Source: Candidatus Omnitrophota bacterium
GTDB lineage: Bacteria > Omnitrophota > Gorgyraeia > JAHIPI01
DNA: 15,415 nucleotides
Assembly (NCBI GenBank): GCA_030616695.1
Contig: JAUWWU010000003.1
Coordinates: forward strand, 1 to 15,415
Reading direction: 5' to 3'
The notes beneath the pieces were generated by a model. It was not told the origin of the DNA and did no database searches. It worked only from the letters and a program-made list of their open reading frames with translations. This document shows positions 7,043-11,865 of this stretch, piece by piece (within the stretch, counting starts at the first letter, position 1; every line of letters begins with the position of its first letter). Both the position numbers and the translations under genes were made by a program.

Positions 7043-10000
7043 ATGGCGGAAATAGGCGGCAAACTGGACATATCCGAGAATTCCAGGAGGGTTCTTGAGA
7101 AAAGATACCTCAAGAAGGATAAGGACAATAAAGTAATAGAGACTCCCGCCGGAATGTTTAGGAGGGTGGCGCAGAATATCGCGAAAGCGGATCAAAATTA
7201 CGCAAAAAAAGCCGATTTAAAAAAGACAGAGGATGAATTTTATTCCATTATGTCGAGATTGGAATTTCTGCCGAACAGCCCCACGCTTATGAACGCCGGC
7301 AAGGAACTGCAACAGCTAAGCGCGTGTTTCGTTTTGCCTGTCAGGGATTCGATGGAGGGTATATTTGACAGTTTGAAGTCAGCCGCACTTATACATAAAT
7401 CAGGGGGAGGGACAGGGTTTTCATTCTCGAGCCTAAGGCCGAAAAGCAGCGTCGTAAGGTCGACCGGCGGCGTAGCAAGCGGCCCCGTTTCGTTCATGAA
7501 GGTTTTTGACGCCGCCACCCAGGCGGTAAAACAGGGCGGCGCGCGCAGGGGCGCGAATATGGGCATATTGAAAGTGGACCATCCCGATATCCTCGAATTC
7601 ATCACCTGCAAGGAGAATAACAAAGATATCACAAATTTCAATATCTCCGTGATGGTCACCGACAAGTTTATGGAAGAAATGGAGAAGGGCCGGCCGTATC
7701 CGCTCATAGACCCTCACTCGAGAAAGAAGACGGGCGAATTGAATGCGAGAGAGGTCTTCGAGCTCATAGTCAAAATGGCGTGGAAGAACGGAGAACCCGG
7801 CATAGTATTTATCGACAGGTTGAATAAAGATAATCCTACCCCTAAATCCGGCATGATCGAATCCACTAATCCTTGCGTTACCGGCAATACTTTCGTATCT
7901 ACACAAAAGGGGCTGGTGAAAATAAAAGACCTCGCCGAACATTATAATAAAAGTGGCATAAACATATTTACCGATGATAGAGTTTTAGACATTCTTTACG
8001 ATAGCGAAGAATCAGGTAATTTAGCGGTGAAAACAAGATCGGCCCTTTCTTTAAACCGGATTTCCGCAGCTTTTAAAACAGGGGTAAAGCCCGTATTAAG
8101 GGTGACAACAGAATCCGGGTTCGAATTAATCGCCACTCATGACCATAAGATCATGGCGCCGAACGGATGGGTTAAAGCCGGAGATTTAAAACCGGGCGAT
8201 CAAGTTCTTATCCAATCGGGCTCAGGCCAATTTAATCCTAATAATGAACTTCCTTTTAATGTTCGAAATGAACATACAGGAGAAAATGGAAGAACATATA
8301 AACTTAATTTACCCGATAAGTGGTCAAGAGAACTAGGACAAGTTTTAGGCTGGCTTGTAGGTGACGGTTGGTTAAGAGATCAGGATGAGAACTGTCGTGT
8401 AGGTTTTACATTTAGTCAGGATGATAAAGAGACTCTCGACTATATAAAGCCTATTATAAATGGCTTTTATGGATATGATATCAAGGAAGTATTAAGGGAA
8501 AATAATGTATATCACCTTTCATACCATAGTAAGTATTTTGTTGAATTCTTCAAATGTTTGGGAGTTAAGCCATGGCAGTCAGAGCAAAAGGAGGTACCCG
8601 ATTCAATTTATACAGCACCGGAGGAAGCTGTAATTGCATTCTTGCAAGGGTTGTTTAGCGCTGATGGTACAATTAGAGATAGCCTCAAGAGTGCAAGTGA
8701 TTGGATAGCTCTGTCTTCCAAAAGTAAGAGACTTTTGAAAGACGTTCAAATTCTTCTTTTGAATTTAGGGATAAAAAGTACTATTTTCAATCGTTCAAGG
8801 ACACCGAGTATTAAATTTTCTTATATTAACAAAACCGGCGAGGAAAAATCGTACGAATGTGATGGTGTGTTATATGAATTAGGAGTCTTTGGGGAAAGTT
8901 TAGATAAATTTAAAGAAAAAATAAATTTTCTTCAAGAAAAGAAAAGGCAAAGATTAGAGAAGATTAGAAGAAAGTTGAGGAGACCCCAAGAGTTTATAGA
9001 GACAATAAAGAGAATTAAATATATAGGAGAAAAAGAGGTTTATAATTTAACCGAACCGATGACGCATTCTATGATTGTTAATGGGTTTGTGACCCGGCAA
9101 TGCGGTGAGCAGCCGCTCCTGCCTTATGAAAGCTGCAATCTGGGCTCCATAGACCTGTCGAAGATGGTTTCGGAAAATAACATTGACTGGAAAAAGCTTG
9201 CCAGGACCGTAGAGGCCGCCGCGCACTTCCTGGATAACGTTATAGACATGAATAAATTTCCCCTTGCCCTGATCCGCGAAAAAACGCGCGAAAACAGAAA
9301 GATCGGCCTGGGCGTTATGGGGTTTGCCGATATGCTTATAAAGTTGGGGATTCCCTATGATTCGGATGAGGCGCTTGAGAAGGCGGAAGATATTATGAGA
9401 TTCATCCTTGAAAATGCCGAAAAGGCCTCGGCGGAACTTGCCGAAAAGAGAGGAGTATTCCCGAATTTTGCGGACAGTATTTATAGCAAAAGTAAACGCG
9501 GATTAAGGAATGCCACGCTTACCACCATCGCCCCGACGGGGACGTTGAGCATAATAGCGAATTCTTCAAGCGGCATAGAGCCTATTTTCGCGGTCTCGTA
9601 TATAAGAAACGTCATGGATAACGATGAGCTCGTAGAGGTGCATCCGTTATTTCTTAAGATGGCGAAGGAAAGAGGCTTCTATTCGACCGAGTTGATGAAA
9701 GAGATAGCGGAAAAGGGCGGCATACAGGATTTTGAAGAGATACCTGATGACGTTAAGAGGCTATTCCGCACGTCGCTCGATATCTCTCCGGAATATCATA
9801 TAAAGATGCAGGCCGCATTTCAGCGCTACACCAATAACGCCGTTTCGAAGACAATAAATTTTCCGAACAGCGCTACTGTGGACGACGTCAGGAAGACCTA
9901 TATGCTGGCATATCAGAACGGCTGTAAGGGCATAACGATTTATAGAGACAAGAGCAGGGAAGAGCAGGTCCTTAATATAGGTAAGGTCAATAAGGCAAGT

Positions 10001-10585
10001 CCGGGCGCACAGGAGATCGGTCAGGAGGAGGCATTGGGCGCGGAGCTAAAGCCTAAACCGCGCAATGTAGTAACTCACGGGACGACTACAAAAGTAAGCA
10101 CGGGCTGCGGAAATCTATATGTTACTATCAATAATGATGACGCCGGCAGGCCGTTTGAGGTATTTATGCAGATGGGAAAGGCCGGCGGCTGCGCCATGAG
10201 CCAGCTGGAGGCTATAGGCAGATTGGTTTCCCTTGCCCTTAGAATAGGGGTGAGCCTGGATTCTATAATCGGCCAGCTGAGGGGTATCCGCTGTCCGTCG
10301 CCGAGCTGGGAAAAAGGCGGCAGCAGGATATTTTCCTGCAGTGATGCCATAGCCCGTGTCATAGAAAGGCGCATGTCGGATAATCAGGAGAAGAAGACCT
10401 CGAACGAAAAGGTGCTGGAGGAGAATGCGGAGCGTCTTGGCACCTCATTCGGGTCGGGCAAAACAACAGGCGCGACTAAAACCATGACCGGCAGCGTCGT
10501 AGGGGTCTGCCCCGATTGCGGGGCCGCTTTAAGGCACGTAGAAGGATGCCAGGTCTGCAACTCCTGCGGCTATTCCAAATGTTGA
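7043..10585 (+). CDS. nrdJ: Class II (B12-dependent) ribonucleotide reductase with an intein
   Basis: Reduces ribonucleotides to deoxyribonucleotides with adenosylcobalamin as radical source. The precursor is 1180 residues; without the intein (278-686) it is 771, normal for NrdJ. The N-extein has NSPTLMNAG, then SAC with Cys95 as one of the redox cysteine pair, and the GGGTG segment. The active site N-P-C-G-E is split by the intein: Asn-Pro ends at 277 and the thiyl-radical Cys is residue 687. The C-extein continues PYESCNLGS and has the PTGTLS motif. The C-terminal tail at 1156-1180 has six cysteines (CPDC ... CNSC ... KC), typical of the NrdJ reducing tail. The start has GGAGG at 7032-7036. 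It is controlled by the NrdR-box promoter and overlaps apgM by 7 nt. Activity needs protein splicing. Confidence 0.96.
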   Translation: MAEIGGKLDISENSRRVLEKRYLKKDKDNKVIETPAGMFRRVAQNIAKADQNYAKKADLKKTEDEFYSIMSRLEFLPNSPTLMNAGKELQQLSACFVLPVRDSMEGIFDSLKSAALIHKSGGGTGFSFSSLRPKSSVVRSTGGVASGPVSFMKVFDAATQAVKQGGARRGANMGILKVDHPDILEFITCKENNKDITNFNISVMVTDKFMEEMEKGRPYPLIDPHSRKKTGELNAREVFELIVKMAWKNGEPGIVFIDRLNKDNPTPKSGMIESTNPCVTGNTFVSTQKGLVKIKDLAEHYNKSGINIFTDDRVLDILYDSEESGNLAVKTRSALSLNRISAAFKTGVKPVLRVTTESGFELIATHDHKIMAPNGWVKAGDLKPGDQVLIQSGSGQFNPNNELPFNVRNEHTGENGRTYKLNLPDKWSRELGQVLGWLVGDGWLRDQDENCRVGFTFSQDDKETLDYIKPIINGFYGYDIKEVLRENNVYHLSYHSKYFVEFFKCLGVKPWQSEQKEVPDSIYTAPEEAVIAFLQGLFSADGTIRDSLKSASDWIALSSKSKRLLKDVQILLLNLGIKSTIFNRSRTPSIKFSYINKTGEEKSYECDGVLYELGVFGESLDKFKEKINFLQEKKRQRLEKIRRKLRRPQEFIETIKRIKYIGEKEVYNLTEPMTHSMIVNGFVTRQCGEQPLLPYESCNLGSIDLSKMVSENNIDWKKLARTVEAAAHFLDNVIDMNKFPLALIREKTRENRKIGLGVMGFADMLIKLGIPYDSDEALEKAEDIMRFILENAEKASAELAEKRGVFPNFADSIYSKSKRGLRNATLTTIAPTGTLSIIANSSSGIEPIFAVSYIRNVMDNDELVEVHPLFLKMAKERGFYSTELMKEIAEKGGIQDFEEIPDDVKRLFRTSLDISPEYHIKMQAAFQRYTNNAVSKTINFPNSATVDDVRKTYMLAYQNGCKGITIYRDKSREEQVLNIGKVNKASPGAQEIGQEEALGAELKPKPRNVVTHGTTTKVSTGCGNLYVTINNDDAGRPFEVFMQMGKAGGCAMSQLEAIGRLVSLALRIGVSLDSIIGQLRGIRCPSPSWEKGGSRIFSCSDAIARVIERRMSDNQEKKTSNEKVLEENAERLGTSFGSGKTTGATKTMTGSVVGVCPDCGAALRHVEGCQVCNSCGYSKC
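7874..9100 (+). mobile_element. Intein with LAGLIDADG homing endonuclease inside nrdJ
   Basis: A 409-residue in-frame insertion (precursor residues 278-686) that self-excises. Block A begins at Cys278 (CVTGNTFV). Block B is ATHDHK with Thr365 and His368. The endonuclease motifs are LGWLVGDGW at 435-443 and LQGLFSADG at 534-542. Block F is near VYNL and block G is VNGFVTRQ, followed by extein Cys687. The usual C-terminal His-Asn is Arg-Gln. C-terminal Gln inteins are a known rare class. The splicing part has a base composition near the host (27 of 60 G/C at 8041-8100, 29 of 60 at 8161-8220), but the endonuclease part is AT-rich (20 of 60 at 8281-8340, 18 of 60 at 8761-8820) against 34 of 60 in the extein at 9181-9240. 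Confidence 0.95.
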
Positions 10586-11865
10586 AGAAGTTACTATACG
10601 TGATACTTGACGGAGTCGGCGATCTACCCATAGAGGAGCTTGGTAAAAAGACTCCGCTTGAGGCAGCAGATACTCCCAATATGGACAGACTTGCCTCAGA
10701 AGGAAAGGCAGGTTTTGTTTATACCGTAGGAGAAGGCATAGCCCCGGAGTCGGATATAGGGGTAATAAGTATCCTCGGTTACGATGCTCATAAGTATTAT
10801 ACCGGCAGAGGGCCGCTTGAGTCTTACGCGGAAGGATTGGAAGTAAATGACGGCGACCTCGCCTATAGGGTTAATTTCGCAACGAAGGAAATAGATAGCA
10901 ATAAGATCATTGATAGAAGGGTGGGGAGAAACCTTACTACTGAGGAGGCAACGGCATTAGCCGGGGAGATTAATACAAAGGTAAAGCTGACCTCTGCGCC
11001 CGCAAAGTTTCATTTTAAGAACACTATAGGCCACAGGGGCGTTTTGGTGATAAAAAGGCAGGGCGGCAAATTGTCCGCAGAAGTCACAAACACTGACCCC
11101 GCATACGGAAGGGAAGGTGTTTTCGGAGTCGCCAAAGCCAAATTCGAAAAGGTCCTTCTTGAATGCGAGCCCGTGGCCGGACACCGGGATTCCGAAGAGG
11201 CAAGAATTGCGTCTGAACTTACGAACGAATTTATAGAAAAAAGCACAGCCGTTTTGAATGAATCGCCGGTTAACAGGAAACGCGCGAAGGAGAATAAGCT
11301 CGTCGGCAACCTGATCCTCACGCGGGATGCGGGCGACAGGCTGCCGAAATTCCCGGATTTAAGCAAGAAATATAATAAGCGTTTTGGCTGTTTCGTAGAG
11401 ATGCCGGTCGAAAGGGGAATAGCCCTTCTTACGGGGATGGAGATAGTGGACCTGCCGCTTCCTTCGGGAGACCTTAAAAAAGACTATGTCCTGCGTTCGA
11501 AAAAGGTATTAAACGCCCTTAAGGATTTTGATTGCCTTTACATCCATATAAAAGGGCCGGATGAGCCCGCGCACGACGGCGATTTTATGAAGAAAAAAGA
11601 ATCGATAGAATTGATAGACAAATACTTCTTCGGCGAGATCCTTCCGAAACTAAATATGAAGGATACCGTTATAGCCATCACTGCCGACCATGCCACGCCG
11701 TGCAAGGTGAAGGCGCATTCCGCCGACCCCGTCCCTCTTCTCGTTGCGGGAGGAGGGGTTTCGCCTGATGGCCTGAAATCTTTCGGGGAAAGCGAATCCC
11801 GCAAAGGCAGCCTCGGCAAGATGACCGGCCCCGAAATCGTCCCCCTCCTCATGAAACTCCTTTGA
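10579..11865 (+). CDS. apgM: 2,3-bisphosphoglycerate-independent phosphoglycerate mutase, archaeal type
   Basis: Interconverts 3- and 2-phosphoglycerate in glycolysis/gluconeogenesis; a metal-dependent enzyme of the alkaline phosphatase superfamily, cytosolic. At 428 residues it is near the family's usual length. The N-terminus LLYVILDGVGDLP has the metal-binding Asp11. PESDIG carries the Ser nucleophile (Ser58) with Asp59, followed by ILGYD and the YTGRGPLE signature. Near the end TADHATPCKVKAHSADPVP holds the other metal-binding Asp and His residues. I start it at ATG 10579, which overlaps the nrdJ stop by 7 nt, so translation is probably coupled. A further 21 codons upstream in frame lie inside nrdJ and encode an Arg-rich tail-like stretch, not conserved enzyme. 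Its stop codon is partly formed by the repeat starting at 11864. Confidence 0.93.
   Translation: MLKKLLYVILDGVGDLPIEELGKKTPLEAADTPNMDRLASEGKAGFVYTVGEGIAPESDIGVISILGYDAHKYYTGRGPLESYAEGLEVNDGDLAYRVNFATKEIDSNKIIDRRVGRNLTTEEATALAGEINTKVKLTSAPAKFHFKNTIGHRGVLVIKRQGGKLSAEVTNTDPAYGREGVFGVAKAKFEKVLLECEPVAGHRDSEEARIASELTNEFIEKSTAVLNESPVNRKRAKENKLVGNLILTRDAGDRLPKFPDLSKKYNKRFGCFVEMPVERGIALLTGMEIVDLPLPSGDLKKDYVLRSKKVLNALKDFDCLYIHIKGPDEPAHDGDFMKKKESIELIDKYFFGEILPKLNMKDTVIAITADHATPCKVKAHSADPVPLLVAGGGVSPDGLKSFGESESRKGSLGKMTGPEIVPLLMKLL

Follow-up and report, generated by a model that had tools for sequence, protein, structure and literature searches.

A class-1-type ribonucleotide reductase intein from an Omnitrophota bacterium with a doubly altered, probably functional C-terminal active site

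The ribonucleotide reductase (RNR) inteins of Chilo iridescent virus (CIV), which ends in Gln, and of Carboxydothermus, which ends in Asp, were reportedly described by Amitai et al. in 2004. In the sections of PMC4031507 drawn on here, whose block numbering we follow, the C-terminal Asn of an intein is described as replaceable by Gln, Asp or Glu. Gln may stand in for Asn at step 3 of splicing, and activation of the terminal side chain may fall to the block F His. The penultimate His plays an assisting part that some inteins do without, and ~5% of functional inteins have another residue at this position. Gln-ended inteins and inteins without a penultimate His are both known to splice. Block F position 4 of class 1 inteins is most commonly Asp (PMC4031507), and in the RecA intein this Asp is described as coordinating both junctions (PMC6195587). 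In the CIV RNR intein, splicing is better with the native Gln than when Asn takes its place, whereas the two Gln-ended Pol II inteins of Pyrococcus (Pab and Pho) are reported in the excerpts cited to be slow and temperature-dependent, and to perform better with Asn (PMC4031507, PMC8175363). In the Pho Pol II intein, which has a His-Gln end, the distance between the block F His and the carbonyl of the Gln is 3.4 Å (PMC8229266). The split intein NrdJ-1 interrupts an RNR active-site motif, with native flanks NPC and SEI (PMC13123727, in part). Titles and abstracts of the literature searched, mostly from non-subscription journals, made no mention of an Omnitrophota NrdJ intein or an Arg-Gln end.

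We analysed a 15,415-nucleotide stretch of a Candidatus Omnitrophota genome (hereafter the window) that carries an intein in nrdJ, the gene for a class II RNR (Table 1). Like the CIV intein, to which it is likened by description only, the window intein ends in Gln (PMC4031507). It also resembles the Pab and Pho Pol II inteins in having a C-terminal Gln with a block F His nearby; those are mini-inteins in a DNA polymerase, however, and the Pho intein keeps its penultimate His165, as far as described in PMC8229266 and PMC8175363. NrdJ-1 shares the RNR active-site motif but is inserted one residue later, is split, and has a +1 Ser and an Asn end preceded by His (PMC13123727, in part).

Table 1. 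Positions of the host gene, intein and splicing or endonuclease motifs within the window.
Feature	Position	Strand	Basis or remark
nrdJ, class II (B12-dependent) ribonucleotide reductase precursor with intein	7043..10585	+	1180 aa, stop codon included
N-extein, residues 1-277	7043..7873	+	ends Glu-Ser-Thr-Asn-Pro; -1 residue Pro at 7871-7873
Intein, residues 278-686, 409 aa, class-1-type, putative LAGLIDADG endonuclease	7874..9100	+	PF14890, PF14528; 77 same-site inteins
Cys1, block A nucleophile	7874..7876	+	Cys in 75/75 rows reaching the column
Block B Thr88-His-Asp-His91 (TxxH)	8135..8146	+	Thr and His in 77/77; codons checked
Endonuclease region, residues ~134-345 (approximate limits, set by us)	8273..8908	+	PF14528, LVGDG and FSADG motifs
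Catalytic-type Asp164	8363-8365	+	Asp in 75/77
Catalytic-type Asp264	8663-8665	+	Asp in 73/77
Block F position 4, Asn391 (AAT) replacing Asp	9044..9046	+	Asp in 75/77; Asn solely in window and G003
Residue 396	9059-9061	+	with tail 397-409, the 14-residue candidate module
C-terminal tail, residues 397-409: THSMIVNGFVTRQ	9062..9100	+	tracks end type, not body similarity, family-wide
Block F His398 (taken as F:13)	9065..9067	+	kept in window; Ser in G003
Penultimate Arg408 (CGG), terminal Gln409 (CAA)	9095..9100	+	codons read
+1 Cys (Cys687), the Cys of NPCGE, RNR radical cysteine	9101..9103	+	alignment to 1xjk
C-extein, residues 687-1180	9101..10582	+	frame and NCBIfam match

The nrdJ frame is open over all 1180 residues with no internal stop codon. 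It matches the B12-dependent RNR family PRK08665 (1176 bits against a cut-off of 961, NCBIfam) and contains the Pfam domains Intein_splicing (PF14890) and LAGLIDADG_3 (PF14528). Once the intein is removed, the joined exteins comprise 771 aa, the first 572 of which align without gaps across STNPCGE to 1xjk, a solved B12-dependent RNR; the family match and the restored NPCGE motif place the host protein among class II RNRs (NrdJ). The intein starts with CVTGNTF and ends with VNGFVTRQ, directly followed by Cys687. The same nrdJ site is empty in a genome of the same family (G001), so these boundaries are not guesswork. Placing the intein start after NPC was rejected, as position 1 would then be Val and the +1 residue Gly. 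A first-pass annotation of the sequence had proposed a 409-residue intein between Asn-Pro and the radical cysteine, and an NPCGE active site after its removal; the open frame, both family databases, the empty site and the structural alignment bear this out (its interval, 7874-9103, was the intein plus the +1 Cys). The Cys of NPCGE bears the thiyl radical in RNRs. Because the active-site loop is broken in the unspliced protein, the precursor should be inactive until spliced, judging from RNR chemistry, as the annotation had also argued in identifying Cys687 as both the +1 residue and the radical cysteine. Downstream, the gene at 10555-11865 (+) passed the apgM phosphoglycerate mutase model (415 bits); a model for the phosphonate enzyme PhpG scores higher (453 bits), yet below its own cut-off. 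By eye, a similar gene also follows nrdJ in genome G035.

The window intein has the Hint fold, Cys1, block B Thr88 and His91 and the +1 Cys687 of a class 1 intein. The less conserved block F His is represented by His398, which we take to be F:13 from its motif position, and the terminal residue by Gln409, a known substitute for Asn. Block F position 4 is Asn391 where class 1 inteins most commonly have Asp, which is not a strict requirement, and Arg408 replaces the penultimate His, a departure of an allowed kind (codons at the intein end: ACC CGG CAA TGC). A class 3 mechanism was rejected, given that Cys1 is present and block F position 4 is Asn391, not Cys. Two LAGLIDADG motif helices with catalytic-type Asp residues (Asp164 and Asp264) and the PF14528 match indicate that the intein carries a putative LAGLIDADG homing endonuclease. 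An AlphaFold model of the intein had a mean pLDDT of 91.8, and its best PDB matches were endonuclease-bearing VMA inteins.

We found 77 distinct inteins at the same NrdJ site, among Omnitrophota, archaea, Bacillota, viral contigs and others. These derive from 118 extractions, reduced to 74 distinct sequences with one re-cut and three added; 65 come from public genomes, nine from other genomes only (the window intein among them) and three from viral contigs, and two rows (L068 and L082) begin at a contig edge. Of 66 confirmed loci in the public genome collection, 65 have a readable C-terminal junction before CGE, in hosts including Omnitrophota, Methanoperedens, Heimdallarchaeota, Woesearchaeota and Bacillota. 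Seventeen viral loci were found and 12 inspected; beyond the three in the set, L161 is a fourth same-site viral intein, ending His-Asn by eye and missed by the extraction pattern. That pattern accepted only N, D or Q before the junction Cys, and looser readings (of 22 of the 30 loci L033-L062, five of the remaining eight, and 65 of the 66 public loci) revealed no other end residue. Besides L161, the set leaves out the decayed L128, L057-L059 (C-terminal junction unrecognised) and weaker matches from the same class. Broader searches, all of whose counts include other inteins and sites, gave matches in 50 of 59 relatives for the whole precursor (mostly to NrdJ itself), in 72 of 384 genomes of the class for the window intein, and in 52 of 384 genomes of the phylum for a 10-row intein alignment. 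The position before the radical cysteine, to which the first-pass annotation had drawn attention, is therefore not special to the window intein: an intein there is an ordinary, widely shared allele. This agrees with the preference of inteins for conserved sites noted in PMC2814812 (in part). The residue at -1 is Pro in all 74 rows of our alignment A2, and since the portion cited of a recent NrdJ-1 study (PMC13123727) calls a -1 Pro incompatible with normal splicing and describes it as disturbing step 1, the whole same-site family is odd at this position.

Within the order, the sample comprised four genomes: the window genome, G003, G002 and G001. The inteins of G003 and G002 are 70% and 64% identical to that of the window, respectively. 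The G002 nrdJ (L005 / L063, a 1636-aa frame) holds a second intein between ...ALIHK and SGGGTG, starting with CLTPETL and ending THN before the Ser, so that one RNR is interrupted by two inteins. In G044 (G044:C101:12679-16302), nrdJ lies in a 1217-aa frame whose intein-like insert occupies a third site in the gene, at approximately residue 167 of the window NrdJ, and the radical-cysteine site there is empty. The decayed same-site relative L128 (JAKASB010000029.1, 3001-4045) has 15 in-frame stops and an end that is out of frame.

Terminal residues across the 77 inteins were Asn (33), Asp (29) and Gln (15). The most frequent end pairs were Leu-Asp (22), Ser-Asn (16), His-Asn (15) and His-Gln (13), followed by Val-Asp (4) and Ala-Asn (2), with Arg-Gln, Ala-Gln, Arg-Asp, Phe-Asp and Tyr-Asp seen once each. 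All 29 Asp-ended inteins are without both the penultimate and the block F His, whereas His and Asp of block F are both present in all 13 His-Gln inteins. Among the 33 Asn-ended inteins the penultimate residue is His, Ser or Ala, and 27 keep the block F His. A Val-Asp-ended clade from Heimdallarchaeota (L086, L087, L089 and L096; support 100/100) has the NG of block G replaced by GA or SA. The first-pass annotation had singled out the Val-Thr-Arg-Gln end, and alignment at the same RNR site confirms both this end and the rarity of Arg-Gln among homologues (one of 77). Its two departures are real; taken singly, however, each is normal here, with Gln in 15 of 77 and no penultimate His in 49 of 77, and what is uncommon is Gln without the His (2 of 77).

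The two exceptions among the 15 Gln-ended inteins are the window intein (Arg-Gln) and that of G003 (Ala-Gln), from the same family. These two also share a third departure that the annotation had overlooked: block F position 4 is Asn in them and Asp in the remaining 75, and column 391 is the sole column at least 85% conserved in those 75 at which both depart in the same way. The exceptional feature is thus the combination of Gln without a penultimate His and a block F Asn (2 of 77), of which the block F Asn is a stronger departure than the two named earlier. The two inteins are sisters on a tree omitting blocks F and G (support 100/99). They differ in the penultimate residue and in the block F His, which is retained in the window and replaced by Ser in G003. 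The 13 His-Gln NrdJ inteins (for example L068, L078, L088 and L118 from Omnitrophota, L070 from Methanoperedens, and L071 and L075 from Bacillota) lie at the same site, between NP and CGE and beginning with Cys, and share with the window intein the LAGLIDADG scaffold, the C-terminal Gln and the block F His; all 13 differ from it in keeping the penultimate His and the block F Asp.

Comparison of tails and bodies across the family shows modular behaviour of the last 14 residues. In two hand-chosen sister pairs with bodies 69-72% identical and different end types, 4-5 of 14 tail residues are common, as opposed to 8-10 of 14 in five hand-chosen pairs with bodies 49-55% identical and the same end residue. 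Over all pairs at matched body identity, same-type pairs exceed different-type pairs by 0.20 identity over the 11 tail columns not used to define type, whereas the same excess reaches a maximum of 0.076 in 34 control windows along the body and is 0.03 in block F. The end residue changed at least 13 times on the tree built without blocks F and G. Coupled changes run in the same direction in approximately six independent pairs, with a median p of 0.03 for three couplings (sign tests, 5-7 pairs); for the coupling of Asn with Ser the median p was 0.125, short of 0.05 (sign tests on starred branches, 5-7 pairs). The tail is either exchanged between lineages as a cassette or strongly co-adapting. 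That of the window shares 10 of 14 residues with each of L118, L068, L088 and L078 (His-Gln type), 7 of 14 with L076 and 4-5 of 14 with two Asp-ended inteins, and so appears closest to the His-Gln type among those compared, with His changed to Arg.

We hold it to be reasonably probable that the intein works, is of class 1 type and carries a LAGLIDADG homing endonuclease, and that at the shared NrdJ site it follows the usual four steps through a variant of the His-Gln-type active site. The N-extein would pass to Cys1 as a thioester and from there to the +1 radical cysteine, forming the branch; Gln409 would cyclise and release the intein, and an S-N shift would leave an intact NPCGE. More of the catalysis may fall to His398 and to Thr and His of block B. 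Since the window intein retains His398 but has Arg in the penultimate position, His398 would be the likeliest helper of Gln409 cyclisation, and Arg408 might, speculatively, stabilise the intermediate. The insert would persist as a homing element with no regulatory role. In favour of splicing, the 1180-aa frame is intact and Cys1, the block B Thr and His, the +1 Cys and both endonuclease Asp residues are present. The combination of Gln without His and block F Asn appears to have been kept over a long divergence, since it is common to the sister intein at 70% identity. Against splicing, neither the penultimate His nor the block F Asp is present (G003 is also without the block F His), and the -1 Pro is said to disturb step 1 in the part of PMC13123727 cited.

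The RNR complement of these genomes also bears on function. The window genome (75% complete) and G003 (95% complete) have one PF02867 (NrdA/NrdJ-type) gene each, as do all four genomes of the order, and NrdD was not found in any of the four. Among nine relatives without NrdJ, eight have NrdD, so an RNR is nearly always kept. The ninth, G005 (96% complete), had no detected NrdJ/NrdA-type gene and no detected NrdD, and an RNR match is therefore not always found. A failed intein would leave the window and G003 cells without a detected RNR. On this ground, and from the intact frames and the 70% identity of the two inteins, we infer that both splice through the altered active site.

An intein in decay, with impaired splicing, a cell living on residual splicing or imported deoxynucleosides, and an endonuclease that sustains the element, is an unlikely alternative to a working intein. 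Assisting residues have been lost (two in the window, three in G003), a clearly decayed relative exists in L128, and each of the two splicing parts has a further departure: Ala95 in the window, where 71 of 75 others have Thr and none Ala, and Arg99 in G003, where 67 of 75 others have Trp and none Arg. Between window and G003, the intein has a dN of 0.197, close to the 0.176 of the C-extein, which favours a working intein; the N-extein has 0.142. Within the intein, dN is 0.256 for the splicing part and 0.146 for the endonuclease; dN/dS-type ratios were given no weight because dS is saturated. Faster change of the splicing part is, however, the rule (57 of 63 comparable pairs). The splicing-to-endonuclease divergence ratio of this pair is high (1.69 against a median of 1.47) but is reached by nine of the 63 pairs, itself included, and relaxed selection as a clear signal was rejected. 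Moreover, the frames are intact in two diverged genomes with a single RNR gene found in each, and Cys1, block B and the +1 Cys are retained. An error of sequencing or assembly at the 3' end of the intein might be suspected in a draft MAG of 966,800 bases in 162 contigs and 75% completeness, but is highly improbable: G003, a separate genome, also has the block F Asn and Gln without His, on which ground assembly error was rejected, and CGG is two substitutions from any His codon, so that one sequencing error would not suffice.

The first-pass annotation had read the two end departures as predicting that splicing is slow or conditional and could act as a switch on dNTP synthesis. Slow or conditional splicing of the window intein is possible; the prediction does not follow from the departures, as published variants go both ways in the excerpts cited. 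Restoring a penultimate His helps some inteins and impairs others (PMC4031507), and a phage intein with a penultimate Gly was slowed by His replacement (PMC5050341). It seems quite unlikely that the altered end acts as a switch, slowing step 3 or tying it to a cue such as redox state or temperature and thereby letting splicing set the timing of dNTP synthesis. Such a switch would draw on the expected inactivity of the unspliced enzyme and on the Gln-ended Pol II inteins, which besides being slow and temperature-dependent need a Cys1-Cys+1 disulfide to be reduced, according to the part of PMC8175363 cited; the window intein has both cysteines. These residues and the -1 Pro are, however, common to the 74 rows of A2 and therefore not special to the window intein. 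No regulatory element was found: Rfam matches above the gathering score in the window amount to one tRNA, with no known RNA element near nrdJ, and we found no pointer to regulation particular to this intein. Effects of an intein on its host enzyme are possible by analogy with Aquifex R2, whose RNR intein, located at metal-ligand residues, increased the iron loading of the mature protein (PMC8772380, in part). The tail data allow a further reading, which we consider possible though somewhat doubtful, in which four coupled end types would have been swapped repeatedly as a 14-residue cassette: His-Asn, Ser/Ala-Asn, His-Gln, and Leu/Val-Asp without the block F His. The window and G003 inteins would then be a functional fifth state that lacks the penultimate His and the block F Asp (G003 lacking the block F His as well), with steps 1 and 3 catalysed differently than in the other four.

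We conclude that this is probably a functional class-1-type RNR intein that carries two alterations in its C-terminal active site. The 77 homologues form a natural series in which only certain combinations of end residue, penultimate residue, block F His and block F Asp occur. The window and G003 sister pair breaks those combinations, in a way that is testable by swaps of 14 residues or single positions on one scaffold, and 29 inteins with a natural Asp end are available at the site too. Good splicing by the pair would mean that the block F Asp is dispensable in a class-1-type intein, even beside a -1 Pro. The family-wide coupling of the last 14 residues may interest specialists above the window case alone.
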